Below are positions 426-37,140 of a stretch of DNA of 37,443 nucleotides, piece after piece (position 1 is the first letter of the stretch; every line of letters starts with the position of its first letter). A program made the translations under genes and the position numbers. Location: the NCBI RefSeq assembly GCF_000003605.2, contig NW_003126254.1, positions 1 to 37,443 of the forward strand. Direction: 5' to 3'. The notes beneath the pieces are model-generated. The model ran no database searches. It was not told the origin of the DNA and saw nothing but the letters and a program-made list of their open reading frames with translations. Origin of the DNA: Saccoglossus kowalevskii (Eukaryota > Hemichordata > Enteropneusta > Harrimaniidae).

Positions 426-490
426 ATTTACCTGAATGTCATCAAGGTATTCTCATATAGTTTGTATGTTTGGATTGTTTGAAGTGTACA
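426..490 (-). repeat. Left-edge repeat unit, joined to the LINE reverse transcriptase fragment
   Basis: This first unit carries the common variants G35 and G47 and no private change. On the minus strand its end, DDIQV, runs in frame directly into NSSLLDEEEA of the LINE. The change from repeat to unique sequence occurs after ATTT (426-429), with CTGCT on the unique side. Unlike many satellite edges, this unit shows no decay. Confidence 0.95.
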
Positions 491-1465
491 ATTTACCTGA
501 ATGTCATCAAGGTATTCTCATATACTTTGTATGTTTTGATTGTTTGAAGTGTACAATTTACCTGAATGTCATCAAGGTATTCTCATATAGTTTGTATGTT
601 TTGATTGTTTGAAGTGTACAATTTACCTGAATGTCATCAAGGTATTCTCATATAGTTTGTATGTTTGGATTGTTTGAAGTGTACAATTTACCTGAATGTC
701 ATCAAGGTATTCTCATATAGTTTGTATGTTTTGATTGTTTGAAGTGTACAATTTACCTGAATGTCATCAAGGTATTCTCATATACTTTGTATGTTTGGAT
801 TGTTTGAAGTGTACAATTTACCTGAATGTCATCAAGGTATTCTCATATAGTTTGTATGTTTTGATTGTTTGAAGTGTACAATTTACCTGAATGTCATCAA
901 GGTATTCTCATATACTTTGTATGTTTGGATTGTTTGAAGTGTACAATTTACCTGAATGTCATCAAGGTATTCTCATATAGTTTGTATGTTTTGATTGTTT
1001 GAAGTGTACAATTTACCTGAATGTCATCAAGGTATTCTCATATAGTTTGTATGTTTGGATTGTTTGAAGTGTACAATTTACCTGAATGTCATCAAGGTAT
1101 TCTCATATACTTTGTATGTTTTGATTGTTTGAAGTGTACAATTTACCTGAATGTCATCAAGGTATTCTGATATAGTTTGTATGTTTTGATTGTTTGAAGT
1201 GTACAATTTACCTGAATGTCATCAAGGTATTCTCATATACTTTGTATGTTTTGATTGTTTGAAGTGTACAATTTACCTGAATGTCATCAAGGTATTCTCA
1301 TATACTTTGTATGTTTTGATTGTTTGAAGTGTACAATTTACCTGAATGTCATCAAGGTATTCTGATATAGTTTGTATGTTTGGATTGTTTGAAGTGTACA
1401 ATTTACCTGAATGTCATCAAGGTATTCTGATATAGTTTGTATGTTTTCATTGTTTGAAGTGTACA

Positions 1466-1985
1466 ATTTACCTGAATGTCATCAAGGTATTCTCATGTAG
1501 TTTGTATGTTTTGATTGTTTGAAGTGTACAATTTACCTGAATGTCATCAAGGTATTCTCATATAGTTTGTATGTTTGGATTGTTTGAAGTGTACAATTTA
1601 CCTGAATGTCATCAAGGTATTCTCATATAGTTTGTATGTTTGGATTGTTTGAAGTGTACAATTTACCTGAATGTCATCAAGGTATTCTCATATAGTTTGT
1701 ATGTTTTGATTGTTTGGAGTGTACAATTTACCTGAATGTCATCAAGGTATTCTCATATAGTTTGTATGTTTTGATTGTTTGCAGTGTACAATTTACCTGA
1801 ATGTCATCAAGGTATTCTCATATAGTTTGTATGTTTTGATTGTTTGAAGTGTACAATTTACCTGAATGTCATCAAGGTATTCTCATATAGTTTGTATGTT
1901 TTGATTGTTTGAAGTGTACAATTTACCTGAATGTCATCAAGGTATTCTCATATAGTTTGTATGTTTTGATTGTTTGAAGTGTACA
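1466..1985. repeat. 8-unit array block with G32, G57 and C57 markers, left copy
   Basis: Markers are G at unit position 32 (1497), G at position 57 (1717) and C at position 57 in the next unit (1782). The same ordered markers occur near 34277 at a constant offset of 32811 bp. The units after them are all T47 in both places. One T47/G47 difference and one extra substitution in the right copy show slight divergence. Confidence 0.75.
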
Positions 1986-3350
1986 ATTTACCTGAATGTC
2001 ATCAAGGTATTCTCATATAGTTTGTATGTTTGGATTGTTTGAAGTGTACAATTTACCTGAATGTCATCAAGGTATTCTCATATAGTTTGTATGTTTTGAT
2101 TGTTTGAAGTGTACAATTTACCTGAATGTCATCAAGGTATTCTCATATAGTTTGTATGTTTTGATTGTTTGAAGTGTACAATTTACCTGAATGTCATCAA
2201 GGTATTCTCATATAGTTTGTATGTTTTGATTGTTTGAAGTGTACAATTTACCTGAATGTCATCAAGGTATTCTCATATAGTTTGTATGTTTGGATTGTTT
2301 GAAGTGTACAATTTACCTGAATGTCATCAAGGTATTCTCATATACTTTGTATGTTTGGATTGTTTGAAGTGTACAATTTACCTGAATGTCATCAAGGTAT
2401 TCTCATATAGTTTGTATGTTTGGATTGTTTGAAGTGTACAATTTACCTGAATGTCATCAAGGTATTCTCATATAGTTTGTATGTTTGGATTGTTTGAAGT
2501 GTACAATTTACCTGAATGTCATCAAGGTATTCTCATATACTTTGTATGTTTGGATTGTTTGAAGTGTACAATTTACCTGAATGTCATCAAGGTATTCTCA
2601 TATAGTTTGTATGTTTTGATTGTTTGAAGTGTACAATTTACCTGAATGTCATCAAGGTATTCTCATATAGTTTGTATGTTTTGATTGTTTGAAGTGTACA
2701 ATTTACCTGAATGTCATCAAGGTATTCTCATATAGTTTGTATGTTTGGATTGTTTGAAGTGTACAATTTACCTGAATGTCATCAAGGTATTCTCATATAG
2801 TTTGTATGTTTGGATTGTTTGAAGTGTACAATTTACCTGAATGTCATCAAGGTATTCTCATATACTTTGTATGTTTGGATTGTTTGAAGTGTACAATTTA
2901 CCTGAATGTCATCAAGGTATTCTCATATACTTTGTATGTTTGGATTGTTTGAAGTGTACAATTTACCTGAATGTCATCAAGGTATTCTCATATAGTTTGT
3001 ATGTTTGGATTGTTTGAAGTGTACAATTTACCTGAATGTCATCAAGGTATTCTCATATAGTTTGTATGTTTTGATTGTTTGAAGTGTACAATTTACCTGA
3101 ATGTCATCAAAGTATTCTCATATAGTTTGTATGTTTTGATTGTTTGAAGTGTACAATTTACCTGAATGTCATCAAGGTATTCTCATATAGTTTGTCTGTT
3201 TGGATTGTTTGAAGTGTACAATTTACCTGAATGTCATCAAGGTATTCTCATATACTTTGTATGTTTGGATTGTTTGAAGTGTACAATTTACCTGAATGTC
3301 ATCAAGGTATTCTCATATAGTTTGTATGTTTGGATTGTTTGAAGTGTACA

Positions 3351-4130
3351 ATTTACCTGAATGTCATCAAGGTATTCTCATATACTTTGTATATTTGGAT
3401 TGTTTGAAGTGTACAATTTACCTGAATGTCATCAAGGTATTCTCATATACTTTGTATGTTTGGATTGTTTGAAGTGTACAATTTACCTGAATGTCATCAA
3501 GGTATTCTCATATAGTTTGTATGTTTGGATTGTTTGAAGTGTCCAATTTACCTGAATGTCATCAAGGTATTCTCATATACTTTGTATGTTTGGATTGTTT
3601 GAAGTGTACAATTTACCTGAATGTCATCAAGGTATTCTCATATAGTTTGTATGTTTTGATTGTTTGAAGTGTACAATTTACCTGAATGTCATCAAGGTAT
3701 TCTCATATAGTTTGTATGTTTTGATTGTTTGAAGTGTACAATTTACCTGAATGTCATCAAGGTATTCTCATATAGTTTGTATGTTTGGATTGTTTGAAGT
3801 GTACAATTTACCTGAATGTCATCAAGGTATTCTCATATAGTTTGTATGTTTGGATTGTTTGAAGTGTACAATTTACCTGAATGTCATCAAGGTATTCTCA
3901 TATAGTTTGTATGTTTGGATTGTTTGACGTGTACAATTTACCTGAATGTCATCAAGGTATTCTCATATACTTTGTATGTTTGGATTGTTTGAAGTGTACA
4001 ATTTACCTGAATGTCATCAAGGTATTCTCATATAGTTTGTATGTTTGGATTGTTTGAAGTGTACAATTTACCTGAATGTCATCAAGGTATTCTTATATAG
4101 TTTGTATGTTTTGATTGTTTGAAGTGTACA
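3351..4130. repeat. 12-unit array block, copy A (780 bp)
   Basis: By the diagnostic positions I tracked, these twelve units show the same variant pattern as 30244-31023. Shared rare markers include A at unit position 43 (3393), C at position 63 (3543), C at position 58 (3928) and T at position 29 (4094). All lie at the same offset of 26893 bp from their partners. The pattern stops matching in the unit before and the unit after. Confidence 0.85.
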
Positions 4131-4325
4131 ATTTACCTGAATGTCATCAAGGTATTCTCATATAGTTTGTATGTTTGGATTGTTTGAAGTGTACAATTTA
4201 CCTGAATGTCATCAAGGTATTCTCATATAGTTTGTATGTTTTGATTGTTTGAAGTGTACAATTTACCTGAATGTCATCAAGGTATTCTCATATAGTTTGT
4301 ATGTTTTGATTGTTTGAAGTGTACA

Positions 4326-5285
4326 ATTTACCTGAATGCCATCAAGGTATTCTCATATAGTTTGTATGTTTGGATTGTTTGAAGTGTACAATTTACCTGA
4401 ATGTCATCAAGGTATTCTCATATAGTTTGTATGTTTTGATTGTTTGAAGTGTACAATTTACCTGAATGTCATCAAGGTATTCTCATATAGTTTGTATGTT
4501 TTGATTGTTTGAAGTGTACAATTTACCTGAATGTCATCAAGGTATTCTCATATAGTTTGTATGTTTGGATTGTTTGAAGTGTACAATTTACCTGAATGTC
4601 ATCAAGGTATTCTGATATAGTTTGTATGTTTCGATTGTTTGAAGTGTACAATTTACCTGAATGTCATCAAGGTATTCTCATATAGTTTGTATGTTTCGAT
4701 TGTTTGAAGTGTACAATTTACCTGAATGTCATCAAGGTATTCTCATATAGTTTGTATGTTTGGATTGTTTGAAGTGTACAATTTACCTGAATGTCATCAA
4801 GGTATTCTCATATAGTTTGTATGTTTGGATTGTTTGAAGTGTACAATTTACCTGAATGTCATCAAGGTATTCTCATATAGTTTGTATGTTTGGATTGTTT
4901 GAAGTGTACAATTTACCTGAATGTCATCAAGGTATTCTCATATAGTTTGTATGTTTGGATTGTTTGAAGTGTACAATTTACCTGAATGTCATCAAGGTAT
5001 TCTCATATAGTTTGTATGTTTGGATTGTTTGAAGTGTACAATTTACCTGAATGTCATCAAGGTATTCTCATATAGTTTGTATGTTTGGATTGTTTGAATT
5101 GTACAATTTACCTGAATGTCATCAAGGTATTCTCATATAGTTTGTATGTTTGGATTGTTTGAAGTGTACGATTTACCTGAATGTCATCAAGGCATTCTCA
5201 TATAGTTTGTATGTTTGGATTGTTTGAAGTGTACAATTTACCTGAATGTCATCAAGGCATTCTCATATAGTTTGTATGTTTGGAT
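4326..5285. repeat. About 15-unit array block with C14, paired C47, T59, G65 and C23 markers, copy 1
   Basis: Ordered rare markers are C at unit position 14 (4339), G29 with C47 (4614 and 4632), a second C47 (4697), T59 (5099), G65 (5170) and C23 (5193). Most recur at offset 7601 in the block starting at 11927. The first part recurs at offset 30991 in the block starting at 35317. Confidence 0.75.
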
Positions 5286-8200
5286 TGTTTGAAGTGTACA
5301 ATTTACCTGAATGTCATCAAGGTATTCTCATATAGTTTGTATGTTTGGATTGTTTGAAGTGTACAATTTACCTGAATGTCATCAAGGTATTCTCATATAG
5401 TTTGTATGTTTTGATTGTTTGAAGTGTACAATTTACCTGAATGTCATCAAGGTATTCTCATATAGTTTGTATGTTTTGATTGTTTGAAGTGTACAATTTA
5501 CCTGAATGTCATCAAGGTATTCTCATATAGTTTGTATGTTTGGATTGTTTGAAGTGTACAATTTACCTGAATGTCATCAAGGTATTCTCATATAGTTTGT
5601 ATGTTTGGATTGTTTGAAGTGTACAATTTACCTGAATGTCATCAAGGTATTCTCATATAGTTTGTATGTTTTGATTGTTTGAAGTGTACAATTTACCTGA
5701 ATGTCATCAAGGTATTCTCATATAGTTTGTATGTTTTGATTGTTTGAAGTGTACAATTTACCTGAATGTCATCAAGGTATTCTCATATAGTTTGTATGTT
5801 TGGATTGTTTGAAGTGTACAATTTACCTGAATGTCATCAAGGTATTCTCGTATAGTTTGTATGTTTGGATTGTTTGAAGTGTACAATTTACCTGAATGCC
5901 ATCAAGGTATTCTCATATAGTTTGTATGTTTTGATTGTTTGAAGTGTACAATTTACCTGAATGTCATCAAGGTATTCTCATATAGTTTGTATGTTTGGAT
6001 TGTTTGAAGTGTACAATTTACCTGAATGTCATCAAGGTATTCTCATATAGTTTGTATGTTTGGATTGTTTGAAGTGTACAATTTACCTGAATGTCATCAA
6101 GGTATTCTCATATAGTTTGTATGTTTGGATTGTTTGAAGTGTACAATTTACCTGAATGTCATCAAGGTATTCTCATATAGTTTGTATGTTTGGATTGTTT
6201 GAAGTGTACAATTTATTTGAATGTCATCAAGGTATTCTCATATAGTTTGTGTGTTTTGATTGTTTGAAGTGTACAATTTACCTGAATGTCATCAAGGTAT
6301 TCTCATATAGTTTGTATGTTCTGATTGTTTGAAGTGTACAATTTACCTGAATGTCATCAAGGTATTCTCATATAGTTTGTATGTTTGGATTGTTTGAAGT
6401 GTACAATTTACCTGAATGTCATCAAGGTATTCTCATATAGTTTGTATGTTTGGATTGTTTGAAGTGTACAATTTACCTGAATGTCATCAAGGTATTCTCA
6501 TATAGTTTGTATGTTTGGATTGTTTGAAGTGTACAATTTACCTGAATGTCATCAAGGCATTCTCATATAGTTTGTATGTTTGGATTGTTTGAAGTATACA
6601 ATTTACCTGAATGTCATCAAGGTATTCTCATATAGTTTGTATGTTTGGATTGTTTGAAGTGTACAATTTACCTGAATGTCATCAAGGTATTCTCATATAG
6701 TTTGTATGTTTTGATTGTTTGAAGTGTACAATTTACCTGAATGTCATCAAGGTATTCTCATATAGTTTGTATGTTTTGATTGTTTGAAGTGTACAATTTA
6801 CCTGAATGCCATCAAGGTATTCTCATATAGTTTGTATGTTTTGATTGTTTGAAGTGTACAATTTACCTGAATGTCATCAAGGTATTCTCATATAGTTTGT
6901 ATGTTTTGATTGTTTGAAGTGTACAATTTACCTGAATGTCATCAAGGTATTCTCATATAGTTTGTATGTTTTGATTGTTTGAAGTGTACAATTTACCTGA
7001 ATGTCATCAAGGTATTCTCATATAGTTTGTATGTTTGGATTGTTTGAAGTGTACAATTTACCTGAATGTCATCAAGGTATTCTCATATAGTTTGTATGTT
7101 TGGATTGTTTGAAGTGTACAATTTACCTGAATGTCATCAAGGTATTCTCATATAGTTTGTATGTTTCGATTGTTTGAAGTGTACAATTTACCTGAATGTC
7201 ATCAAGGTATTCTCATATAGTTTGTATGTTTGGATTGTTTGAAGTGTACAATTTACCTGAATGTCATCAAGGTATTTCTCATATAGTTTGTATGTTTTGA
7301 TTGTTTGGAGTGAACAATTTACTGAATGTCATCAAGGTATTCTCATATAGTTTGTATGTTTGGATTGTTTGAAGTGTACAATTTACCTGAATGTCATCAA
7401 GGTATTCTCATATAGTTTGTATGTTTCGATTGTTTGAAGTGTACAATTTACCTGAATGTCATCAAGGTATTCTCATATAGTTTGTATGTTTGGATTGTTT
7501 GAAGTGTACAATTTACCTGAATGTCATCAAGGTATTCTCATATAGTTTGTATGTTTGGATTGTTTGAAGTGTACAATTTACCTGAATGTCATCAAGGTAT
7601 TCTCATATAGTTTGTATGTTTGGATTGTTTGAAGTGTACAATTTACCTGAATGTCATCAAGGTATTCTCATATAGTTTGTATGTTTGGATTGTTTGAAGT
7701 GTACAATTTACCTGAATGTCATCAAGGTATTCTCATATAGTTTGTATGTTTGGATTGTTTGAAGTGTACAATTTACCTGAATGTCATCAAGGTATTCTCA
7801 TATAGTTTGTATGTTTGGATTGTTTGAAGTGTACGATTTACCTGAATGTCATCAAGGCATTCTCATATAGTTTGTATGTTTGGATTGTTTGAAGTGTACA
7901 ATTTACCTGAATGTCATCAAGGTATTCTCATATAGTTTGTATGTTTGGATTGTTTGAAGTGTACAATTTACCTGAATGTCATCAAGGTATTCTCATATAG
8001 TTTGTATGTTTTGATTGTTTGAAGTGTACAATTTACCTGAATGTCATCAAGGTATTCTCATATAGTTTGTATGTTTTGATTGTTTGAAGTGTACAATTTA
8101 CCTGAATGCCATCAAGGTATTCTCATATAGTTTGTATGTTTTGATTGTTTGAAGTGTACAATTTACCTGAATGTCATCAAGGTATTCTCATATAGTTTGT

Positions 8201-10110
8201 ATGTTTTGATTGTTTGAAGTGTACAATTTACCTGAATGCCATCAAGGTATTCTCATATAGTTTGTATGTTTTGATTGTTTGAAGTGTACAATTTACCTGA
8301 ATGTCATCAAGGTATTCTCATATAGTTTGTATGTTTGGATTGTTTGAAGTGTACAATTTACCTGAATGTCATCAAGGTATTCTCATATAGTTTGTATGTT
8401 TGGATTGTTTGAAGTGTACAATTTACCTGAATGTCATCAAGGTATTCTCATATAGTTTGTATGTTTGGATTGTTTGAAGTGTACAATTTACCTGAATGTC
8501 ATCAAGGTATTCTCATATAGTTTGTATGTTTGGATTGTTTGAAGTGTACAATTTACCTGAATGTCATCAAGGTATTCTCATATAGTTTGTATGTTTGGAT
8601 TGTTTGAAGTGTACGATTTACCTGAATGTCATCAAGGCATTCTCATATAGTTTGTATGTTTGGATTGTTTGAAGTGTACAATTTACCTGAATGTCATCAA
8701 GGTATTCTCATATAGTTTGTATGTTTGGATTGTTTGAAGTGTACAATTTACCTGAATGTCATCAAGGTATTCTCATATAGTTTGTATGTTTGGATTGTTT
8801 GAAGTGTACAATTTACCTGAATGTCATCAAGGTATTCTCATATAGTTTGTATGTTTTGATTGTTTGAAGTGTACAATTTACCTGAATGCCATCAAGGTAT
8901 TCTCATATAGTTTGTATGTTTTGATTGTTTGAAGTGTACAATTTACCTGAATGTCATCAAGGTATTCTCATATAGTTTGTATGTTTTGATTGTTTGAAGT
9001 GTACAATTTACCTGAATGTCATCAAGGTATTCTCATATAGTTTGTATGTTTTGATTGTTTGAAGTGTACAATTTACCTGAATGTCATCAAGGTATTCTCA
9101 TATAGTTTGTATGTTTGGATTGTTTGAAGTGTACAATTTACCTGAATGTCATCAAGGTATTCTCATATAGTTTGTATGTTTCGATTGTTTGAAGTGTACA
9201 ATTTACCTGAATGTCATCAAGGTATTCTCATATAGTTTGTATGTTTGGATTGTTTGAAGTGTACAATTTACCTGAATGTCATCAAGGTATTCTCATATAG
9301 TTTGTATGTTTGGATTGTTTGAAGTGTACAATTTACCTGAATGTCATCAAGGTATTCTCATATAGTTTGTATGTTTGGATTGTTTGAAGTGTACAATTTA
9401 CCTGAATGTCATCAAGGTATTCTCATATAGTTTGTATGTTTCGATTGTTTGAAGTGTACAATTTACCTGAATGTCATCAAGGTATTCTCATATAGTTTGT
9501 ATGTTTGGATTGTTTGAAGTGTACAATTTACCTGAATGTCATCAAGGTATTCTCATATAGTTTGTATGTTTGGATTGTTTGAAGTGTACAATTTACCTGA
9601 ATGTCATCAAGGTATTCTCATATAGTTTGTATGTTTGGATTGTTTGAAGTGTACGATTTACCTGAATGTCATCAAGGCATTCTCATATAGTTTGTATGTT
9701 TGGATTGTTTGAAGTGTACAATTTACCTGAATGTCATCAAGGTATTCTCATATAGTTTGTATGTTTGGATTGTTTGAAGTGTACAATTTACCTGAATGTC
9801 ATCAAGGTATTCTCATATAGTTTGTATGTTTGGATTGTTTGAAGTGTACAATTTACCTGAATGTCATCAAGGTATTCTCATATAGTTTGTATGTTCTGAT
9901 TGTTTGAAGTGTACAATTTACCTGAATGTCATCAAGGTATTCTCATATAGTTTGTATGTTTGGATTGTTTGAAGTGTACAATTTACCTGAATGTCATCAA
10001 GGTATTCTCATATAGTTTGTATGTTTGGATTGTTTGAAGTGTACAATTTACCTGAATGTCATCAAGGTATTCTCATATAGTTTGTATGTTTGGATTGTTT
10101 GAAGTGTACA

Positions 10111-10431
10111 ATTTACCTGAATGTCATCAAGGTATTTTCATATAGTTGTATGTTTGATGTTGAAGTGTACAATTTACCTGAATGTCATCAAGGTATTCTG
10201 ATATAGTTGTATGTTTTGATTGTTTGAAGTGTACAATTTACTGAATGTCATCAAAGGTATTCTCATATAGTTTGTATGTTTTGATTGTTTGAAGTGTACA
10301 ATTTACCTGAATGTCATCAAGGTATTCTCATATACTTTGTATGTTTTGATTGTTTGAAGTGTACAATTTACCTGAATGTCATCAAGGTATTCTCATATAG
10401 TTTTGTATGTTTTGATTGTTTGAAGTGTACA
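10111..10431. repeat. Indel-rich stretch of the array
   Basis: These five units carry most of the small indels of the left half. Four bases are missing in one unit (ATAGTTGTATGTTTGATGTTGAAG), a T is missing in the next, ACTGAATG replaces ACCTGAATG, and CAAAGG and GTTTTG carry single-base insertions. The neighbouring 149 units on the left keep the 65-bp phase apart from one +1/-1 pair. Confidence 0.85.
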
Positions 10432-12886: not shown

Positions 12887-15800
12887 TGTTTGAAGTGTAC
12901 AATTTACCTGAATGTCATCAAGGTATTCTCATATAGTTTGTATGTTTTGATTGTTTGAAGTGTACAATTTACCTGAATGTCATCAAGGTATTCTCATATA
13001 GTTTGTATGTTTTGATTGTTTGAAGTGTACAATTTACCTGAATGCCATCAAGGTATTCTCATATAGTTTGTATGTTTTGATTGTTTGAAGTGTACAATTT
13101 ACCTGAATGTCATCAAGGTATTCTCATATAGTTTGTATGTTTTGATTGTTTGAAGTGTACAATTTACCTGAATGTCATCAAGGTATTCTCATATAGTTTG
13201 TATGTTTTGATTGTTTGAAGTGTACAATTTACCTGAATGTCATCAAGGTATTCTCATATAGTTTGTATGTTTGGATTGTTTGAAGTGTACAATTTACCTG
13301 AATGTCATCAAGGTATTCTCATATAGTTTGTATGTTTGGATTGTTTGAAGTGTACAATTTACCTGAATGTCATCAAGGTATTCTCATATAGTTTGTATGT
13401 TTGGATTGTTTGAAGTGTACAATTTACCTGAATGTCATCAAGGTATTCTCATATAGTTTGTATGTTTGGATTGTTTGAAGTGTACAATTTACCTGAATGT
13501 CATCAAGGTATTCTCATATAGTTTGTATGTTTGGATTGTTTGAAGTGTACAATTTACCTGAATGTCATCAAGGTATTCTCATATAGTTTGTATGTTTGGA
13601 TTGTTTGAAGTGTACAATTTACCTGAATGTCATCAAGGTATTCTCATATAGTTTGTATGTTTGGATTGTTTGAAGTGTACAATTTACCTGAATGTCATCA
13701 AGGTATTCTCATATAGTTTGTATGTTTGGATTGTTTGAAGTGTACAATTTACCTGAATGTCATCAAGGTATTCTCATATAGTTTGTATGTTTGGATTGTT
13801 TGAAGTGTACAATTTACCTGAATGTCATCAAGGTATTCTCATATAGTTTGTATGTTTGGATTGTTTGAAGTGTACAATTTACCTGAATGTCATCAAGGTA
13901 TTCTCATATAGTTTGTATGTTTGGATTGTTTGAAGTGTACAATTTACCTGAATGTCATCAAGGTATTCTCATATAGTTTGTATGTTTGGATTGTTTGAAG
14001 TGTACAATTTACCTGAATGTCATCAAGGTATTCTCATATAGTTTGTATGTTTGGATTGTTTGAAGTGTACAATTTACCTGAATGTCATCAAGGTATTCTC
14101 ATATAGTTTGTATGTTTGGATTGTTTGAAGTGTACAATTTACCTGAATGTCATCAAGGTATTCTCATATAGTTTGTATGTTTGGATTGTTTGAAGTGTAC
14201 AATTTACCTGAATGTCATCAAGGTATTCTCATATAGTTTGTATGTTTTGATTGTTTGAAGTGTACAATTTACCTGAATGTCATCAAGGTATTCTCATATA
14301 GTTTGTATGTTTTGATTGTTTGAAGTGTACAATTTACCTGAATGTCATCAAGGTATTCTCATATAGTTTGTATGTTTGGATTGTTTGAAGTGTACAATTT
14401 ACCTGAATGTCATCAAGGTATTCTCATATAGTTTGTATGTTTTGATTGTTTGAAGTGTACAATTTACCTGAATGTCATCAAGGTATTCTCATATAGTTTG
14501 TATGTTTGGATTGTTTGAAGTGTACAATTTACCTGAATGTCATCAAGGTATTCTCATATACTTTGTATGTTTGGATTGTTTGAAGTGTACAATTTACCTG
14601 AATGTCATCAAGGTATTCTCATATACTTTGTATGTTTTGATTGTTTGAAGTGTACAATTTACCTGAATGTCATCAAGGTATTCTCATATAGTTTGTATGT
14701 TTGGATTGTTTGAAGTGTACAATTTACCTGAATGTCATCAAGGTATTCTCATATAGTTTGTATGTTTGGATTGTTTGAAATGTACAATTTACCTGAATGT
14801 CATCAAGGTATTCTCATATAGTTTGTATGTTTGGATTGTTTGAAGTGTACAATTTACCTGAATGTCATCAAGGTATTCTCATATAGTTTGTATGTTTGGA
14901 TTGTTTGAAGTGTACAATTTACCTGAATGTCATCAAGGTATTCTCATATAGTTTGTATGTTTGGATTGTTTGAAGTGTACAATTTACCTGAATGTCATCA
15001 AGGTATTCTCATATAGTTTGTATGTTTGGATTGTTTGAAGTGTACAATTTACCTGAATGTCATCAAGGTATTCTCATATACTTTGTATGTTTTGATTGTT
15101 TGAAGTGTACAATTTACCTGAATGTCATCAAGGTATTCTCATATAGTTTGTATGTTTTGATTGTTTGAAGTGTACAATTTACCTGAATGTCATCAAGGTA
15201 TTCTCATATAGTTTGTATGTTTTGATTGTTTGAAGTGTACAATTTACCTGAATGTCATCAAGGTATTCTCATATAGTTTGTATGTTTTGATTGTTTGAAG
15301 TGTACAATTTACCTGAATGTCATCAAGGTATTTTCATATAGTTTGTATGTTTTGATTGTTTGAAGTGTACAATTTACCTGAATGTCATCAAGGTATTCTG
15401 ATATAGTTTGTATGTTTTGATTGTTTGAAGTGTACAATTTACCTGAATGTCATCAAGGTATTCTCATATAGTTTGTATGTTTTGATTGTTTGAAGTGTAC
15501 AATTTACCTGAATGTCATCAAGGTATTCTCATATACTTTGTATGTTTTGATTGTTTGAAGTGTACAATTTACCTGAATGTCATCAAGGTATTCTCATATA
15601 GTTTGTATGTTTTGATTGTTTGAAGTGTACAATTTACCTGAATGTCATCAAGGTATTCTCATATAGTTTGTATGTTTTGATTGTTTGAAGTGTACAATTT
15701 ACCTGAATGTCATCAAGGTATTCTGATATAGTTTGTATGTTTTGATTGTTTGAAGTGTACAATTTACCTGAATGTCATCAAGGTATTCTCATATAGTCTG

Positions 15801-17386: not shown

Positions 17387-17501
17387 ATTTACCTGAATGT
17401 CATCAAGGTATTCTCATATAGTTTGTATGTTTTCATTGTTTGCTGAATGTCATCAAGGTATTCTCATATAGTTTGTATGTTTGGATTGTTTGAAGTGTAC
17501 A
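17387..17501. repeat. Two units with a 15-bp deletion (115 bp), copy 1
   Basis: The 15 bp AAGTGTACAATTTAC across the unit junction are missing, giving TTTGCTGAATG (junction near 17442). The preceding half carries C48 (TTTTCATTG). The same deletion with the same linked C48 occurs at four other places. Confidence 0.9.
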
Positions 17502-18086: not shown

Positions 18087-18201
18087 ATTTACCTGAATGT
18101 CATCAAGGTATTCTCATTAAGTTTGTATGTTTTCATTGTTTGCTGAATGTCATCAAGGTATTCTCATATAGTTTGTATGTTTGGATTGTTTGAAGTGTAC
18201 A
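18087..18201. repeat. Two units with a 15-bp deletion, copy 2
   Basis: Same TTTGCTGAATG junction (near 18142) and linked C48. This copy also has TTAA in place of TATA before GTTTG. Confidence 0.9.
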
Positions 18202-19176: not shown

Positions 19177-19291
19177 ATTTACCTGAATGTCATCAAGGTA
19201 TTCTCATATAGTTTGTATGTTTTCATTGTTTGCTGAATGTCATCAAGGTATTCTCATATAGTTTGTATGTTTTGATTGTTTGAAGTGTACA
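19177..19291. repeat. Two units with a 15-bp deletion, copy 3
   Basis: Same junction (near 19232) and linked C48. Confidence 0.9.
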
Positions 19292-25985: not shown

Positions 25986-26099
25986 ATTTACCTGAATGTC
26001 ATCAAGGTATTCTCATATAGTTTGTATGTTTTCATTGTTTGCTGAATGTCATCAAGGTATTCCCATATAGTTTGTATGTTTTGATTGTTGAAGTGTACA
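25986..26099. repeat. Two units with a 15-bp deletion, copy 4
   Basis: Same junction (near 26041) and linked C48. One further base is missing in the second unit (GATTGTTGAAG), and there is a private C (TTCCCATA). Confidence 0.9.
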
Positions 26100-26358
26100 A
26101 TTTACCTGAATGTCATCAAGGTATTCTCATATAGTTTGTATGTTTTGATTGTTTGAAGTGTACAATTTACTGAATGTCATCAAGGTATTCTCATATACTT
26201 TGTATGTTTGGATTGTTTGAAGTGTACAATTTACCTGAATGTCATCAAGGTATTCTCATATAGTTTGTATGTTTTGATTGTTTGAAGTGTACAATTTACC
26301 TGAATGTCATCAAGGTATTCTCATATAGTTTGTATGTTTTCATTGTTTGAAGTGTACA

Positions 26359-26473
26359 ATTTACCTGAATGTCATCAAGGTATTCTCATATAGTTTGTAT
26401 GTTTTCATTGTTTGCTGAATGTCATCAAGGTATTCTCATATAGTTTGTATGTTTTGATTGTTTGAAGTGTACA
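26359..26473. repeat. Two units with a 15-bp deletion, copy 5
   Basis: Same junction (near 26414) and linked C48, 373 bp after copy 4. Confidence 0.9.
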
Positions 26474-28358
26474 ATTTACCTGAATGTCATCAAGGTATTC
26501 TCATATAGTTTGTATGTTTTGATTGTTTGAAGTGTACAATTTACCTGAATGTCATCAAGGCATTCTCATATACTTTGTATGTTTGGATTGTTTGAAGTGT
26601 ACAATTTACCTGAATGTCATCAAGGTATTCTCATATACTTTGTATGTTTGGATTGTTTGAAGTGTACAATTTACCTGAATGTCATCAAGGTATTCTCATA
26701 TAGTTTGTATGTTTGGATTGTTTGAAGTGTACAATTTACCTGAATGTCATCAAGGTTTTCTCATATACTTTGTATGTTTGGATTGTTTGAAGTGTACAAT
26801 TTACCTGAATGTCGTCAAGGTATTCTCATATACTTTGTATGTTTGGATTGTTTGAAGTGTACAATTTACCTGAATGTCATCAAGGTATTCTCATATAGTT
26901 TGTATGTTTTGATTGTTTGAAGTGTACAATTTACCTGAATGTCATCAAGGTATTCTCATATAGTTTGTATGTTTGGATTGTTTGAAGTGTACAATTTACC
27001 TGAATGTCATCAAGGTATTCTCATATAGTTTGTATGTTTGGATTGTTTGAAGTGTACAATTTACCTGAATGTCATCAAGGTATTCTCATATAGTTTGTAT
27101 GTTTGGATTGTTTGAAGTGTACAATTTACCTGAATGTCATCAAGGTATTCTCATATACTTTGTATGTTTGGATTGTTTGAAGTGTACAATTTACCTGAAT
27201 GTCATCAAGGTATTCTCATATACTTTGTATGTTTGGATTGTTTGAAGTGTACAATTTACCTGAATGTCATCAAGGTATTCTCATATAGTTTGTATGTTTG
27301 GATTGTTTGAAGTGTACAATTTACCTGAATGTCATCAAGGTATTCTCATATAGTTTGTATGTTTTGATTGTTTGAAGTGTACAATTTACCTGAATGTCAT
27401 CAAAGTATTCTCATATAGTTTGTATGTTTTGATTGTTTGAAGTGTACAATTTACCTGAATGTTATCAAGGTATTCTCATATAGTTTGTCTGTTTGGATTG
27501 TTTGAAGTGTACAATTTACCTGAATGTCATCAAGGTATTCTCATATACTTTGTATGTTTGGATTGTTTGAAGTGTACAATTTACCTGAATGTCATCAAGG
27601 TATTCTCATATAGTTTGTATGTTTGGATTGTTTGAAGTGTACAATTTACCTGAATGTCATCAAGGTATTCTCATATACTTTGTATATTTGGATTGTTTGA
27701 AGTGTACAATTTACCTGAATGTCATCAAGGTATTCTCATATAGTTTGTATGTTTTGATTGTTTGAAGTGTACAATTTACCTGAATGTCATCAAGGTATTC
27801 TCATATAGTTTGTATGTTTGGATTGTTTGAAGTGTCCAATTTACCTGAATGTCATCAAGGTATTCTCATATACTTTGTATGTTTGGATTGTTTGAAGTGT
27901 ACAATTTACCTGAATGTCATCAAGGTATTCTCATATAGTTTGTATGTTTTGATTGTTTGAAGTGTACAATTTACCTGAATGTCATCAAGGTATTCTCATA
28001 TAGTTTGTATGTTTTGATTGTTTGAAGTGTACAATTTACCTGAATGTCATCAAGGTATTCTCATATAGTTTGTATGTTTGGATTGTTTGAAGTGTACAAT
28101 TTACCTGAATGTCATCAAGGTATTCTCATATAGTTTGTATGTTTGGATTGTTTGAAGTGTACAATTTACCTGAATGTCATCAAGGTATTCTCATATAGTT
28201 TGTATGTTTGGATTGTTTGACGTGTACAATTTACCTGAATGTCATCAAGGTATTCTCATATACTTTGTATGTTTGGATTGTTTGAAGTGTACAATTTACC
28301 TGAATGTCATCAAGGTATTCTCATATAGTTTGTATGTTTTGATTGTTTGAAGTGTACA

Positions 28359-28813
28359 ATTTACCTGAATGTCATCAAGGTATTCTCATATAGTTTGTAT
28401 GTTTGGATTGTTTGAAGTGTCCAATTTACCTGAATGTCATCAAGGTATTCTCATATACTTTGTATGTTTGGATTGTTTGAAGTGTACAATTTACCTGAAT
28501 GTCATCAAGGTATTCTCATATAGTTTGTATGTTTTGATTGTTTGGAGTGTACAATTTACCTGAATGTCATCAAGGTATTCTCATATAGTTTGTATGTTTT
28601 AATTGTTTGAAGTGTACAATTTACCTGAATGTCATCAAGGTATTCTCATATAGTTTGTATGTTTGGATTGTTTGAAGTGTACAATTTACCTGAATGTCAT
28701 CAAGGTATTCTCATATAGTTTGTATGTTTTGATTGTTTGAAGTGTACAATTTACCTGAATGTCATCAAGGTATTCTCATATAGTTTGTATGTTTTGATTG
28801 TTTGACGTGTACA
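28359..28813. repeat. 7-unit higher-order module (C63, C35, G57, A48, G47, T47, C58), copy 1
   Basis: Seven successive units carry, in order, C at position 63, C at 35, G at 57, A at 48, then G47, T47 and C at 58. This order identifies a higher-order repeat seen again at 31414, 32584, 33367 and 36487, all in the right quarter of the array. The next unit has a private AAGGAATTC change. Confidence 0.85.
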
Positions 28814-30243
28814 ATTTACCTGAATGTCATCAAGGAATTCTCATATAGTTTGTATGTTTGGATTGTTTGAAGTGTACAATTTACCTGAATGTCATCAAGG
28901 TATTCTCATATAGTTTGTATGTTTGGATTGTTTGAAGTGTCCAATTTACCTGAATGTCATCAAGGTATTCTCATATACTTTGTATGTTTGGATTGTTTGA
29001 AGTGTACAATTTACCTGAATGTCATCAAGGTATTCTCATATAGTTTGTATGTTTGGATTGTTTGAAGTGTACAATTTACCTGAATGTCATCAAGGTATTC
29101 TCATATACTTTGTATGTTTGGATTGTTTGAAGTGTACAATTTACCTGAATGTCATCAAGGTATTCTCATATACTTTGTATGTTTGGATTGTTTGAAGTGT
29201 ACAATTTACCTGAATGTCATCAAGGTATTCTCATATAGTTTGTATGTTTGGATTGTTTGAAGTGTACAATTTACCTGAATGTCATCAAGGTATTCTCATA
29301 TAGTTTGTATGTTTTGATTGTTGGAAGTGTACAATTTACCTGAATGTCATCAAAGTATTCTCATATAGTTTGTATGTTTTGATTGTTTGAAGTGTACAAT
29401 TTACCTGAATGTCATCAAGGTATTCTCATATACTTTGTATGTTTGGATTGTTTGAAGTGTACAATTTACCTGAATGTCATCAAGGTATTCTCATATAGTT
29501 TGTATGTTTGGATTGTTTGAAGTGTACAATTTACCTGAATGTCATCAAGGTATTCTCATATAGTTTGTATGTTTTGATTGTTTGAAGTGTACAATTTACC
29601 TGAATGTCATCAAAGTATTCTCATATAGTTTGTATGTTTTGATTGTTTGAAGTGTACAATTTACCTGAATGTCATCAATGTATTCTCATATAGTTTGTCT
29701 GTTTGGATTGTTTGAAGTGTACAATTTACCTGAATGTCATCAAGGTATTCTCATATACTTTGTATGTTTGGATTGTTTGAAGTGTACAATTTACCTGAAT
29801 GTCATCAAGGTATTCTCATATAGTTTGTATGTTTGGATTGTTTGAAGTGTACAATTTACCTGAATGTCATCAAGGTATTCTCATATACTTTGTATATTTG
29901 GATTGTTTGAAGTGTACAATTTACCTGAATGTCATCAAGGTATTCTCATATACTTTGTATGTTTGGATTGTTTGAAGTGTACAATTTACCTGAATGTCAT
30001 CAAGGTATTCTCATATAGTTTGTATGTTTGGATTGTTTGAAGTGTCCAATTTACCTGAATGTCATCAAGGTATTCTCATATAGTTTGTATGTTTGGGTTG
30101 TTTGAAGTGTACAATTTACCTGAATGTCATCAAGGTATTCTCATATAGTTTGTATGTTTTGATTGTTTGAAGTGTACAATTTACCTGAATGTCATCAAGG
30201 TATTCTCATATAGTTTGTATGTTTTGATTGTTTGAAGTGTACA

Positions 30244-31023
30244 ATTTACCTGAATGTCATCAAGGTATTCTCATATACTTTGTATATTTGGATTGTTTGA
30301 AGTGTACAATTTACCTGAATGTCATCAAGGTATTCTCATATACTTTGTATGTTTGGATTGTTTGAAGTGTACAATTTACCTGAATGTCATCAAGGTATTC
30401 TCATATAGTTTGTATGTTTGGATTGTTTGAAGTGTCCAATTTACCTGAATGTCATCAAGGTATTCTCATATACTTTGTATGTTTGGATTGTTTGAAGTGT
30501 ACAATTTACCTGAATGTCATCAAGGTATTCTCATATAGTTTGTATGTTTTGATTGTTTGAAGTGTACAATTTACCTGAATGTCATCAAGGTATTCTCATA
30601 TAGTTTGTATGTTTTGATTGTTTGAAGTGTACAATTTACCTGAATGTCATCAAGGTATTCTCATATAGTTTGTATGTTTGGATTGTTTGAAGTGTACAAT
30701 TTACCTGAATGTCATCAAGGTATTCTCATATAGTTTGTATGTTTGGATTGTTTGAAGTGTACAATTTACCTGAATGTCATCAAGGTATTCTCATATAGTT
30801 TGTATGTTTGGATTGTTTGACGTGTACAATTTACCTGAATGTCATCAAGGTATTCTCATATACTTTGTATGTTTGGATTGTTTGAAGTGTACAATTTACC
30901 TGAATGTCATCAAGGTATTCTCATATAGTTTGTATGTTTGGATTGTTTGAAGTGTACAATTTACCTGAATGTCATCAAGGTATTCTTATATAGTTTGTAT
31001 GTTTTGATTGTTTGAAGTGTACA
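30244..31023. repeat. 12-unit array block, copy B (780 bp)
   Basis: Partner of 3351-4130. The rare markers are at 30286 (A43), 30436 (C63), 30821 (C58) and 30987 (T29), and the G/C choice at position 35 and G/T choice at position 47 match in all twelve units. The next unit (31024) carries A at position 21, where copy A's neighbour does not, so the block ends there. Confidence 0.85.
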
Positions 31024-31413
31024 ATTTACCTGAATGTCATCAAAGTATTCTCATATAGTTTGTATGTTTTGATTGTTTGAAGTGTACAATTTACCTGAAT
31101 GTCATCAAGGTATTCTCATATAGTTTGTCTGTTTGGATTGTTTGAAGTGTACAATTTACCTGAATGTCATCAAGGTATTCTCATATACTTTGTATGTTTG
31201 GATTGTTTGAAGTGTACAATTTACCTGAATGTCATCAAGGTATTCTCATATAGTTTGTATGTTTGGATTGTTTGAAGTGTACAATTTACCTGAATGTCAT
31301 CAAGGTATTCTCATATACTTTGTATATTTGGATTGTTTGAAGTGTACAATTTACCTGAATGTCATCAAGGTATTCTCATATAGTTTGTATGTTTTGATTG
31401 TTTGAAGTGTACA

Positions 31414-31933
31414 ATTTACCTGAATGTCATCAAGGTATTCTCATATAGTTTGTATGTTTGGATTGTTTGAAGTGTCCAATTTACCTGAATGTCATCAAGG
31501 TATTCTCATATACTTTGTATGTTTGGATTGTTTGAAGTGTACAATTTACCTGAATGTCATCAAGGTATTCTCATATAGTTTGTATGTTTTGATTGTTTGG
31601 AGTGTACAATTTACCTGAATGTCATCAAGGTATTCTCATATAGTTTGTATGTTTTAATTGTTTGAAGTGTACAATTTACCTGAATGTCATCAAGGTATTC
31701 TCATATAGTTTGTATGTTTGGATTGTTTGAAGTGTACAATTTACCTGAATGTCATCAAGGTATTCTCATATAGTTTGTATGTTTTGATTGTTTGAAGTGT
31801 ACAATTTACCTGAATGTCATCAAGGTATTCTCATATAGTTTGTATGTTTTGATTGTTTGACGTGTACAATTTACCTGAATGTCATCAAGGTATTCTCATA
31901 TAGTTTGTATGTTTGGATTGTTTGAAGTGTACA
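31414..31933. repeat. 8-unit higher-order repeat (520 bp), module copy 2
   Basis: The C63, C35, G57, A48, G47, T47, C58 series is followed by a G47 unit, and the series then restarts at 31934. The 520-bp spacing defines a true tandem higher-order repeat here. Confidence 0.85.
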
Positions 31934-32193
31934 ATTTACCTGAATGTCATCAAGGTATTCTCATATAGTTTGTATGTTTGGATTGTTTGAAGTGTCCAAT
32001 TTACCTGAATGTCATCAAGGTATTCTCATATACTTTGTATGTTTGGATTGTTTGAAGTGTACAATTTACCTGAATGTCATCAAGGTATTCTCATATAGTT
32101 TGTATGTTTTGATTGTTTGGAGTGTACAATTTACCTGAATGTCATCAAGGTATTCTCATATAGTTTGTATGTTTTAATTGTTGGAAGTGTACA
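31934..32193. repeat. Truncated higher-order module (4 units), ending in a chimeric unit
   Basis: C63, C35 and G57 units are followed by a unit that has A48 (32176) and also G55 (32183, TTGTTGGAAG). G55 is otherwise seen at 29323 and 36476 without A48. The following unit carries A21, as it does after 29323. The module is therefore cut short at an apparent recombination junction. Confidence 0.8.
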
Positions 32194-32583
32194 ATTTACC
32201 TGAATGTCATCAAAGTATTCTCATATAGTTTGTATGTTTTGATTGTTTGAAGTGTACAATTTACCTGAATGTCATCAAGGTATTCTCATATAGTTTGTCT
32301 GTTTGGATTGTTTGAAGTGTACAATTTACCTGAATGTCATCAAGGTATTCTCATATACTTTGTATGTTTGGATTGTTTGAAGTGTACAATTTACCTGAAT
32401 GTCATCAAGGTATTCTCATATAGTTTGTATGTTTGGATTGTTTGAAGTGTACAATTTACCTGAATGTCATCAAGGTATTCTCATATACTTTGTATATTTG
32501 GATTGTTTGAAGTGTACAATTTACCTGAATGTCATCAAGGTATTCTCATATAGTTTGTATGTTTTGATTGTTTGAAGTGTACA

Positions 32584-33038
32584 ATTTACCTGAATGTCAT
32601 CAAGGTATTCTCATATAGTTTGTATGTTTGGATTGTTTGAAGTGTCCAATTTACCTGAATGTCATCAAGGTATTCTCATATACTTTGTATGTTTGGATTG
32701 TTTGAAGTGTACAATTTACCTGAATGTCATCAAGGTATTCTCATATAGTTTGTATGTTTTGATTGTTTGGAGTGTACAATTTACCTGAATGTCATCAAGG
32801 TATTCTCATATAGTTTGTATGTTTTAATTGTTTGAAGTGTACAATTTACCTGAATGTCATCAAGGTATTCTCATATAGTTTGTATGTTTGGATTGTTTGA
32901 AGTGTACAATTTACCTGAATGTCATCAAGGTATTCTCATATAGTTTGTATGTTTTGATTGTTTGAAGTGTACAATTTACCTGAATGTCATCAAGGTATTC
33001 TCATATAGTTTGTATGTTTTGATTGTTTGACGTGTACA
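32584..33038. repeat. 7-unit higher-order module, copy 3
   Basis: Same marker order (C63, C35, G57, A48, G47, T47, C58). The six units before it (A21, C41, C35, G47, C35 with A43, T47; from 32194) repeat the six before 31414 (from 31024), 1170 bp or 18 units away. Confidence 0.85.
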
Positions 33039-33103
33039 ATTTACCTGAATGTCATCAAGGTATTCTCATATAGTTTGTATGTTTTGATTGTTTGAAGTGT
33101 ACA

Positions 33104-33301
33104 ATTTACCTGAATGTCATCAAGGTATTCTTATATAGTTTGTATGTTTTGATTGTTTGAAAGTGTACAATTTACCTGAATGTCATCAAAGTATTCTCAT
33201 ATAGTTTTGTATGTTTTGATTGTTTGAAGTGTACAATTTACCTTGAATGTCATCAAGGCATTCTCATATAGTTTGTATGTTTTGATTGTTTGACGTGTAC
33301 A
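33104..33301. repeat. Indel-rich stretch with three single-base insertions
   Basis: Three units total 198 bp instead of 195 because of GAAAGTG, GTTTTGTATG and ACCTTGAATG. All are homopolymer-type extensions. This could be a real mutation cluster or uncorrected read error. Confidence 0.8.
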
Positions 33302-33366
33302 ATTTACCTGAATGTCATCAAGGTATTCTCATATAGTTTGTATGTTTGGATTGTTTGAAGTGTACA

Positions 33367-33821
33367 ATTTACCTGAATGTCATCAAGGTATTCTCATATA
33401 GTTTGTATGTTTGGATTGTTTGAAGTGTCCAATTTACCTGAATGTCATCAAGGTATTCTCATATACTTTGTATGTTTGGATTGTTTGAAGTGTACAATTT
33501 ACCTGAATGTCATCAAGGTATTCTCATATAGTTTGTATGTTTTGATTGTTTGGAGTGTACAATTTACCTGAATGTCATCAAGGTATTCTCATATAGTTTG
33601 TATGTTTTAATTGTTTGAAGTGTACAATTTACCTGAATGTCATCAAGGTATTCTCATATAGTTTGTATGTTTGGATTGTTTGAAGTGTACAATTTACCTG
33701 AATGTCATCAAGGTATTCTCATATAGTTTGTATGTTTGGATTGTTTGAAGTGTACAATTTACCTGAATGTCATCAAGGTATTCTCATATAGTTTGTATGT
33801 TTTGATTGTTTGACGTGTACA
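33367..33821. repeat. 7-unit higher-order module, copy 4
   Basis: Same marker order except that the sixth unit is G47 rather than T47. It follows directly after the indel-rich stretch 33104-33301. Confidence 0.8.
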
Positions 33822-34276
33822 ATTTACCTGAATGTCATCAAGGTATTCTCATATAGTTTGTATGTTTGGATTGTTTGAAGTGTACAATTTACCTGAATGT
33901 CATCAAGGTATTCTCATATAGTTTGTATGTTTTGATTGTTTGAAGTGTACAATTTACCTGAATGTCATCAAGGTATTCTCATATAGTTTGTATGTTTGGA
34001 TTGTTTGAAGTGTACAATTTACCTGAATGTCATCAAGGTATTCTCATATACTTTGTATGTTTTGATTGTTTGAAGTGTACAATTTACCTGAATGTCATCA
34101 AGGTATTCTCATATAGTTTGTATGTTTGGATTGTTTGAAGTGTACAATTTACCTGAATGTCATCAAGGTATTCTCATATAGTTTGTATGTTTTGATTGTT
34201 TGAAGTGTACAATTTACCTGAATGTCATCAAGGTATTCTCATATAGTTTGTATGTTTGGATTGTTTGAAGTGTACA

Positions 34277-34796
34277 ATTTACCTGAATGTCATCAAGGTA
34301 CTCTCATGTAGTTTGTATGTTTTGATTGTTTGAAGTGTACAATTTACCTGAATGTCATCAAGGTATTCTCATATAGTTTGTATGTTTGGATTGTTTGAAG
34401 TGTACAATTTACCTGAATGTCATCAAGGTATTCTCATATAGTTTGTATGTTTGGATTGTTTGAAGTGTACAATTTACCTGAATGTCATCAAGGTATTCTC
34501 ATATAGTTTGTATGTTTGGATTGTTTGGAGTGTACAATTTACCTGAATGTCATCAAGGTATTCTCATATAGTTTGTATGTTTTGATTGTTTGCAGTGTAC
34601 AATTTACCTGAATGTCATCAAGGTATTCTCATATAGTTTGTATGTTTTGATTGTTTGAAGTGTACAATTTACCTGAATGTCATCAAGGTATTCTCATATA
34701 GTTTGTATGTTTTGATTGTTTGAAGTGTACAATTTACCTGAATGTCATCAAGGTATTCTCATATAGTTTGTATGTTTTGATTGTTTGAAGTGTACA
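34277..34796. repeat. 8-unit array block with G32, G57 and C57 markers, right copy
   Basis: Partner of 1466-1985 at offset 32811. The markers are at 34308, 34528 and 34593. The first unit has an extra T-to-C change (GTACTCTCATG). Confidence 0.75.
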
Positions 34797-35316
34797 ATTT
34801 ACCTGAATGTCATCAAGGTATTCTCATATAGTTTGTATGTTTTGATTGTTTGAAGTGTACAATTTACCTGAATGTCATCAAGGTATTCTCATATAGTTTG
34901 TGTGTTTTGATTGTTTGAAGTGTACAATTTACCTGAATGTCATCAAGGTATTCTCATATAGTTTGTATGTTTTGATTGTTTGAAGTGTACAATTTACCTG
35001 AATGTCATCAAGGTATTCTCATATAGTTTGTATGTTTGGATTGTTTGAAGTGTACAATTTACCTGAATGTCATCAAGGTATTCTCATATAGTTTGTATGT
35101 TTGGATTGTTTGAAGTGTACAATTTACCTGAATGTCATCAAGGTATTCTCATATAGTTTGTATGTTTGGATTGTTTGAAGTGTACAATTTACCTGAATGT
35201 CATCAAGGTATTCTCATATAGTTTGTATGTTTTGATTGTTTGAAGTGTACAATTTACCTGAATGTCATCAAGGTATTCTCATATAGTTTGTATGTTTTGA
35301 TTGTTTGAAGTGTACA

Positions 35317-35836
35317 ATTTACCTGAATGCCATCAAGGTATTCTCATATAGTTTGTATGTTTGGATTGTTTGAAGTGTACAATTTACCTGAATGTCATCA
35401 AGGTATTCTCATATAGTTTGTATGTTTGGATTGTTTGAAGTGTACAATTTACCTGAATGTCATCAAGGTATTCTCATATAGTTTGTATGTTTTGATTGTT
35501 TGAAGTGTACAATTTACCTGAATGTCATCAAGGTATTCTCATATAGTTTGTATGTTTGGATTGTTTGAAGTGTACAATTTACCTGAATGTCATCAAGGTA
35601 TTCTGATATAGTTTGTATGTTTCGATTGTTTGAAGTGTACAATTTACCTGAATGTCATCAAGGTATTCTCATATAGTTTGTATGTTTCGATTGTTTGAAG
35701 TGTACAATTTACCTGAATGTCATCAAGGTATTCTCATATAGTTTGTATGTTTGGATTGTTTGAAGTGTACAATTTACCTGAATGTCATCAAGGTATTCTC
35801 ATATAGTTTGTATGTTTGGATTGTTTGAAGTGTACA
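35317..35836. repeat. Block with C14, G29+C47 and C47 markers, copy 3 (partial)
   Basis: C14 at 35330, G29 at 35605 with C47 in the same unit, and C47 again in the next unit match 4326-4845 at offset 30991. One unit has G47 where copy 1 has T47. The later T59/G65/C23 markers are absent here. Confidence 0.65.
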
Positions 35837-36486
35837 ATTTACCTGAATGTCATCAAGGTATTCTCATATAGTTTGTATGTTTTGATTGTTTGAAGTGTAC
35901 AATTTACCTGAATGTCATCAAGGTATTCTCATATAGTTTGTATGTTTTGATTGTTTGACGTGTACAATTTACCTGAATGTCATCAAGGTATTCTCATATA
36001 GTTTGTATGTTTGGATTGTTTGAAGTGTACAATTTACCTGAATGTCATCAAGGTATTCTCATATAGTTTGTATGTTTGGATTGTTTGAAGTGTCCAATTT
36101 ACCTGAATGTCATCAAGGTATTCTCATATACTTTATATGTTTGGATTGTTTGAAGTGTACAATTTACCTGAATGTCATCAAGGTATTCTCATATAGTTTG
36201 TATGTTTGGATTGTTTGAAGTGTACAATTTACCTGAATGTCATCAAGGTATTCTCATATACTTTGTATGTTTGGATTGTTTGAAGTGTACAATTTACCTG
36301 AATGTCATCAAGGTATTCTCATATACTTTGTATGTTTGGATTGTTTGAAGTGTACAATTTACCTGGATGTCATCAAGGTATTCTCATATAGTTTGTATGT
36401 TTGGATTGTTTGAAGTGTACAATTTACCTGAATGTCATCAAGGTATTCTCATATAGTTTGTATGTTTTGATTGTTGGAAGTGTACA

Positions 36487-36941
36487 ATTTACCTGAATGT
36501 CATCAAGGTATTCTCATATAGTTTGTATGTTTGGATTGTTTGAAGTGTCCAATTTACCTGAATGTCATCAAGGTATTCTCATATACTTTGTATGTTTGGA
36601 TTGTTTGAAGTGTACAATTTACCTGAATGTCATCAAGGTATTCTCATATAGTTTGTATGTTTTGATTGTTTGGAGTGTACAATTTACCTGAATGTCATCA
36701 AGGTATTCTCATATAGTTTGTATGTTTTAATTGTTTGAAGTGTACAATTTACCTGAATGTCATCAAGGTATTCTCATATAGTTTGTATGTTTGGATTGTT
36801 TGAAGTGTACAATTTACCTGAATGTCATCAAGGTATTCTCATATAGTTTGTATGTTTTGATTGTTTGAAGTGTACAATTTACCTGAATGTCATCAAGGTA
36901 TTCTCATATAGTTTGTATGTTTTGATTGTTTGACGTGTACA
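36487..36941. repeat. 7-unit higher-order module, copy 5, near the right edge
   Basis: Same marker order as copies 1-3, followed by one G47 unit, one T47 unit and the edge unit. It is preceded by a unit with G55 (36476). Its closeness to the array end shows that block copying reaches within two units of the LINE boundary. Confidence 0.85.
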
Positions 36942-37071
36942 ATTTACCTGAATGTCATCAAGGTATTCTCATATAGTTTGTATGTTTGGATTGTTTGAAG
37001 TGTACAATTTACCTGAATGTCATCAAGGTATTCTCATATAGTTTGTATGTTTTGATTGTTTGAAGTGTACA

Positions 37072-37140
37072 ATTTACCTGAATGTCATCAAGGTATTCTT
37101 ATATAGTTTGTATGTTTTCATTGTTTGAAGTGTACAATTT
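37072..37140 (-). repeat. Right-edge repeat unit plus terminal ATTT, joined to the LINE linker fragment
   Basis: This last unit differs from the consensus by T at position 29 and by C at position 48, with T47. On the minus strand it reads in frame from the right flank as KLYTSNNENIQTI, then TAA, then EYLDDIQV. The Asn-Asn-Glu-Asn reading comes from the C48 change; most internal units read NNPN or NNQN here. The unit ends at 37136. ATTT (37137-37140) follows, shared with the start of every unit, and then unique TGTGTAAACA. It may preserve ancestral LINE bases, since edge units exchange less with the rest of the array. Confidence 0.9.

Follow-up and report, generated by a model that had tools for sequence, protein, structure and literature searches.

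A 36.7-kb tandem array that very probably grew in place from a 65-bp segment of LINE ORF2 in Saccoglossus kowalevskii

The beginnings of tandem arrays are hard to study, as neither the ancestral single copy nor the first edges usually survive. The origin of such repeats has been called very difficult to study (PMC3389668). The window analyzed here, meaning the whole 37,443-bp stretch of DNA, consists almost entirely of one array with LINE sequence on either side, which raises the question of whether the array was inserted into the element or grew out of it. In our view, the best explanation overall, with a probability of roughly 0.85, is that a native segment of ORF2 was duplicated across a short ATTT repeat and then grew in place to 566 units. 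That the array arose in place from a native 65-bp LINE ORF2 segment is very probable, and a stepwise mechanism for its growth is somewhat favored. The features on which this reading is built are as follows.

1 to 425, minus strand: LINE ORF2, start of the RT (KSPGLDG...RPISL...), on the 3' side of the array in the orientation of the element, with one in-frame stop
37141 to 37443, minus strand: LINE ORF2, the linker that precedes the RT, on the 5' side of the array in the orientation of the element, containing a frame change
426 to 37140, no strand assigned: tandem array in which a 65-bp unit is present 566 times, followed by a final ATTT, with units diverging from the majority unit by a mean of 1.33% (deleted positions not counted)
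426 to 490, minus strand: first unit, in frame with the left flank (YTSNNPNIQTI*EYLDDIQVN, then SSLLDEEE)
37072 to 37136, plus strand: last full unit, sharing 61/65 bases with the single-unit paralogue in contig C365
426 to 429, plus strand: ATTT, left-edge copy of a 4-bp microhomology
37137 to 37140, plus strand: ATTT, right-edge copy of the same microhomology and the terminal partial unit

Tandem Repeats Finder, run on the window, reported a single array at 426 to 37140 with a period of 65, 566.1 copies, and 96% matches, in agreement with the approximately 566-fold amplification given in a preliminary description of this DNA. Wrap-around alignment resolved the array into 566 head-to-tail units and a 4-base ATTT remainder. 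With the remainder counted as a row, 544 of the 567 rows had a length of exactly 65 bases, and there were 74 distinct row types. Most of the variation sat at two unit sites, site 47 (G in 322 units, T in 233, and C in 10) and site 35 (G in 488, C in 77, and A in 1). The majority unit contains stops in 6/6 frames, so the array is noncoding, and a coding role was rejected. Hairpin-driven expansion was rejected as well, since a two-unit stretch folded no better than shuffled sequences on either strand (z scores of -0.09 and 0.12). The array needs no function to be explained and behaves as a minisatellite grown to satellite length.

We searched the assembly (572 Mb in 4,830 contigs) with two core patterns from the unit. 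An exact 24-base core occurred 500 times, with 500/500 occurrences in the window, and a 26-base core, for which up to 3 mismatches were allowed, occurred 559 times, 558 of them in the window and 1 in contig C365; the reversed control of each core gave 0 matches genome-wide. The search for further arrays, which the preliminary description had suggested, found no second one in the assembly with either pattern, both of which would miss more diverged relatives of the unit. The term “satellite,” used in that description, is apt in part. The array exceeds 100 copies, as does a classical satellite family, but it is a single array at a single locus and not one of many, and by unit size it is a minisatellite, its 566 head-to-tail copies of 65 bp falling within the 10 to 100 bp given for minisatellite units in the relevant portion of PMC3389668.

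Both flanks derive from one LINE ORF2, on the same strand and in collinear order, as first described; the support comes from the minus-strand translations of both flanks and from their order in contig C365. The left flank, read on the minus strand from 425 to 1, translates as SSLLDEEE...KSPGLDG..., and the right flank, also on the minus strand and after the frame change within it, as ...GPILQHSVYTK. On overlapping contig C3434, the right flank passes into the unit as ...SVYTKLYTSNN, and in the window the first unit and the left flank are contiguous as YTSNNPNIQTI*EYLDDIQVNSSLLDEEE..., with one TGA within the unit. With one unit between them, the two natural edges of the array stay in a common frame. 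A continuous frame with only one stop had been proposed, and this holds for the junction but not for the whole left flank, where a second stop lies downstream (RPISL*NVDY).

The left end of C3434 overlaps the right end of the window (325/326 aligned positions identical, with one 1-base gap), and the element is common to C365 and C3434 as far as C3434 position 709. Farther out, from position 977 on, C3434 has matches at many other places, 46/49 matches starting at a position of at least 977. A piece of C3434 at about 790 to 1037, picked by eye as the endonuclease, gave no Exo_endo_phos match; this piece partly overlaps the region matched in many places. The Pfam RVT_1 match in the left flank was weak (E value of 1.7e-5 and 25 bits, below the curated cut-off of 29.6 bits). 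The left-flank protein matched at the 150 genome places scored, out of 1017 candidates and with the window itself counted. One relative, L027, has an open frame of 1025 residues with both Exo_endo_phos (E value of 9.1e-14) and RVT_1 (E value of 2.6e-35) domains, and on this basis we took the host element of the array to be a LINE.

Contig C365 carries, on its minus strand at about 108157 to 109077, the left flank, exactly one unit, and the right flank in the same order as the window. Among the matches listed, it was the one place besides overlapping C3434 to match both flanks at the DNA level. Its unit is identical to the array majority at 60/65 positions (92.3%) and to the first unit at 60/65. 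When gapped columns are excluded (63, 23, and 63, respectively), C365 is identical to the window left flank (157 to 425) at 191/207 positions (92.3%), to the right flank at 273/290 (94.1%), and to C3434 positions 23 to 709 at 597/634 (94.2%). Because the divergence between the C365 unit and the array equals that between the C365 flanks and the window flanks, the segment appears to be native to the LINE. The C365 copy is degenerate: its left-flank match is limited to window positions 157 to 425, window positions 1 to 156 have no match in C365, and there are 5 gap runs in each flank. The expectation that LINE copies would carry the segment once and free of stops was borne out in C365 as to number but not as to stops, of which the C365 unit has two and the array unit one.

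We scanned 29 loci of more distant relatives (L017 to L045) with a motif pattern restricted to spans of 38 to 88 residues. The pattern matched in 11/29 loci (10 distinct sequences) and was absent in 18/29, and in the matching relatives the Y..L motif and PGxDG were 54 to 69 residues apart, with 9/10 sequences lacking a stop. A single unit had been said to restore the motif spacing, and indeed the one-unit reading of the window spans 63 residues, compared with 63 in L018 and 62 in L027. Six relatives chosen by hand for alignment, of which L027, L019, and L045 are stop-free across the matched region, aligned at 31 to 44% identity with 9 invariant columns, one of which (L20) lies within the unit. 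Stop-free sequence at the place of the unit was seen in distant relatives only (31 to 44% identical). Based on these alignments, the spacing and the flanking motifs are conserved in the relatives, and the individual residues of the unit hardly so; C365 is the strong evidence. It is the sole apparent close paralogue, and the putative pre-expansion state is reconstructed from this one DNA-level copy together with distantly related proteins.

The single unit in C365 has ATTT at either end, giving a precursor structure of ATTT-61 bp-ATTT; in the array, ATTT likewise forms the first four bases, and one further ATTT follows the last full unit. Because ATTT stands at both ends of the precursor, a tandem duplication across this microhomology would give exactly both observed edges. 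Microhomology of at least 4 bp was present in 2.4% of 128,527 start/length choices (40 to 100 bp) in these LINE stretches; given this chance rate, the 4-bp match is suggestive and not proof. The precursor, both edges, and the array thus survive together in one assembly, as the preliminary description had it, in the form of single-unit C365, the ATTT edges, and the array. We propose that a degenerate LINE copy held a native 65-bp ORF2 stretch just upstream of the RT, between the direct repeats ATTT...ATTT. The first tandem duplication may have occurred across the 4-bp ATTT microhomology by replication slippage or microhomology-mediated break repair, and later growth to 566 units would have involved slippage of neighboring units plus unequal exchange or conversion, which may have copied multi-unit blocks over distances of up to about 27 kb.

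The order of unit types within the array bears on this later growth. Neighboring units were of the same type in 26.4% of cases versus 18.9% (standard deviation [SD], 1.5) after shuffling, and agreement at site 47 at lag 1 was 64.6% versus 49.1% (SD, 2.0); local clustering at site 35 was slight (0.777 versus 0.761; SD, 0.010). Three features recur elsewhere in the array, the blocks both nearby and far off.

3351 to 4130, plus strand: 12-unit block (units 45 to 56), with unit types identical to those at 30244 to 31023 (units 460 to 471), about 27 kb away
31024 to 31868, plus strand: 13-unit block of 10 distinct types (units 472 to 484), with unit types identical to those at 32194 to 33038 (units 490 to 502)
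17387 to 17501, plus strand: unit pair with a 15-bp deletion, recurring from 18087, 19177, 25986, and 26359

The best block alignment scored 55.7 versus at most 16.1 in 5 shuffles; the alignment rows overlap one another. The 15-bp deletion is found in 5 places, with T47 and C48 adjoining it in 5/5, as expected from a single origin followed by spread. Together, the local clustering and the repeated blocks of several units suggest that the array grew by slippage together with unequal exchange or conversion. Among the lags tested, none beyond 1 stood out in unit-type identity, ruling out a simple higher-order periodicity. Nor were edge units more diverged than the array interior, which, like the slight clustering at site 35, counts against the proposed explanation; with sites 35 and 47 left out, the first 40 units were among the most homogeneous.

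A bolder reading of the same locus, which we consider possible but doubtful, is that of a satellite at birth. One microhomology duplication in the coding DNA of a dead LINE would have led, within a short time and at one locus only, to >500 copies, possibly in one replication-based burst, while a sister with identical ATTT boundaries stayed single. If so, nature would have run the experiment of giving two near-identical precursors different fates, and the locus would allow the reason for the expansion of just one of them to be studied.

Growth in a single shot, in which replication (by rolling circle or repeated template switching) very quickly generated the bulk of the array where it stands and later exchange only reshuffled it, would suit the low divergence (1.33%), the single locus, the single strand, and the exact edges of the array. 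We nevertheless think it unlikely, as the variant bases at sites 35 and 47 are interspersed over the length of the array, those at site 47 form local runs, and multi-unit blocks recur, all of which fits many events. Later homogenization after a one-shot amplification could yield an identical picture of variants and blocks.

It is decidedly unlikely that the array, though real, owes its length or arrangement to assembly, whether by collapse, by expansion, or by the joining of two alleles. In favor of this, the window is the entire contig C1904 (37,443 bases) and nearly all of it is array, C3434 begins within the array, 22 bases from the edge, and meets the window end with its 1-base gap, and no contig shares the left end of the window (a 32-base pattern with 2 mismatches matched the window alone). 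The 74 distinct row types follow a nonperiodic order, however, which is not what one read repeated would produce. The contig extends only 425 and 303 bases beyond the array on its two sides, which leaves the true length uncertain and makes both length and order dependent on the assembler.

Arrays can shrink to one unit, and C365 could in principle be a contracted former array and not the pre-expansion state, but this is very improbable given that its unit and its flanks show equal divergence from their counterparts in the window and that distant relatives have one-unit spacing. Scarcely credible is the insertion or transposition of a pre-existing satellite into the LINE, for although an array edge within a transposon can mark an insertion, the corresponding place in C365 holds exactly one unit, as diverged as its flanks, and the 26-base core (up to 3 mismatches) was found at no other locus of the assembly; we thus rejected a foreign insertion on the evidence of C365, upholding the original claim of amplification in place.

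Read as a native ORF2 segment that grew in place, the array joins the transposon-born minisatellites and satellites, those from LINE ORF2 included, that are already in print, and it is an unusually clean example. At least 7,276 tandem repeats in the human genome are derived from transposable elements (TEs) (PMC3389668), and minisatellites arise inside transposons via short flanking repeats (PMC6947457). Two models are cited in these sources (PMC3389668/PMC6947457), that of Haber and Louis with short flanking direct repeats and that of Taylor and Breden with a terminal partial unit. The array resembles TE-derived minisatellites (PMC3389668, PMC6947457) in that a transposon-internal segment, with a unit of <100 bp, was amplified at one locus, with short flanking direct repeats or a terminal partial unit; its unit is native to the TE, being single in C365, diverged like the flanks, and similarly spaced in relatives. 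It is unlike them in its 566 copies over 36.7 kb, compared with up to 100 units for minisatellites (PMC6947457), in its source in a LINE coding region, and in having a single-unit paralogue in the same genome. Its microhomology is 4 bp, versus 5 to 10 or 5 to 20 bp for TE-derived minisatellites (PMC3389668, PMC6947457), and the direct repeats at the ends of the C365 unit (ATTT; chance rate, 2.4%) have 4 bp versus the 5 to 10 bp of the Haber-Louis type.

We found no identical case in the literature, a search of open-licence PMC articles in which absence is weak evidence. Satellite monomers related to LINE ORF2 include PROsat (Phodopus), Pvc 20 (Phoca), and chicken HinfI (CR1) (PMC9659126); these are known by similarity to the element, whereas the present array remains inside the element it came from, with both edges preserved. 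In Lathyrus, short arrays within LTR retrotransposons expanded to satellites (PMC7004042), another case of long arrays from a segment within a retrotransposon copy. The Lathyrus elements already carry short tandem arrays, expanded in some copies, whereas here a single-copy coding segment expanded at one locus. A satellite from a single-copy intron sequence (Valeri, 2018, as cited in PMC7004042) is likewise a tandem amplification of a single-copy segment, with an intron and not a transposon as its source. The untranslated regions of LINEs have been named as a source, with microhomology discussed (PMC12628747). Set beside these systems, what is unusual in the array is its size, its single locus, and the joint survival of precursor, edges, and array. 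With the single-unit sister, both edges, exact unit boundaries, and a record of block duplication in one assembly, models of initiation and growth become testable at one locus.

At the right edge of the array and in the LINE flank beyond it, and at one place within the array, we noted the following features (window positions, forward strand).

13227-14201, array, 15 consecutive identical units
37072-37136, array, last full unit
37119-37443, end overlap with contig C3434 (its positions 1-326)
37208-37223, right flank (minus-strand LINE ORF2), perfect palindrome of 16 bases, GTAATGACGTCATTAC

The last full unit carries T at site 29 of the 65-bp unit, as does the single unit in the sister LINE copy on contig C365, while the array majority carries C. 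This edge unit may therefore have retained the ancestral base, although it is not alone in doing so, since three inner units also carry T29. The 15-unit run is the array's longest of a single type and comprises 14 lag-1 pairs; in 50 shuffles, the longest repeated run averaged 6.7 and never exceeded 9.

At the DNA level, the LINE subfamily occurred at only two genome places among the matches listed, including C365 108157-109077, whereas its protein was matched at 150 scored places (of 1,017 candidates, window included), nearly all of them distant. Based on this disparity, the subfamily appears to be an ancient lineage close to extinction.

The window and C3434 overlap end to end with a single 1-base difference (A versus AA), and the assembly leaves the two contigs unjoined; C3434 is probably the right-hand neighbor. 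The flank palindrome is preserved in both C365 and C3434. Adjoining the LINE remnant on C3434, positions ∼977 to 1500 have similar sequence at many genome places (46 of 49 matches listed), and a peptide encoded in this segment carries a motif suggestive of a putative Ty3-type reverse transcriptase.
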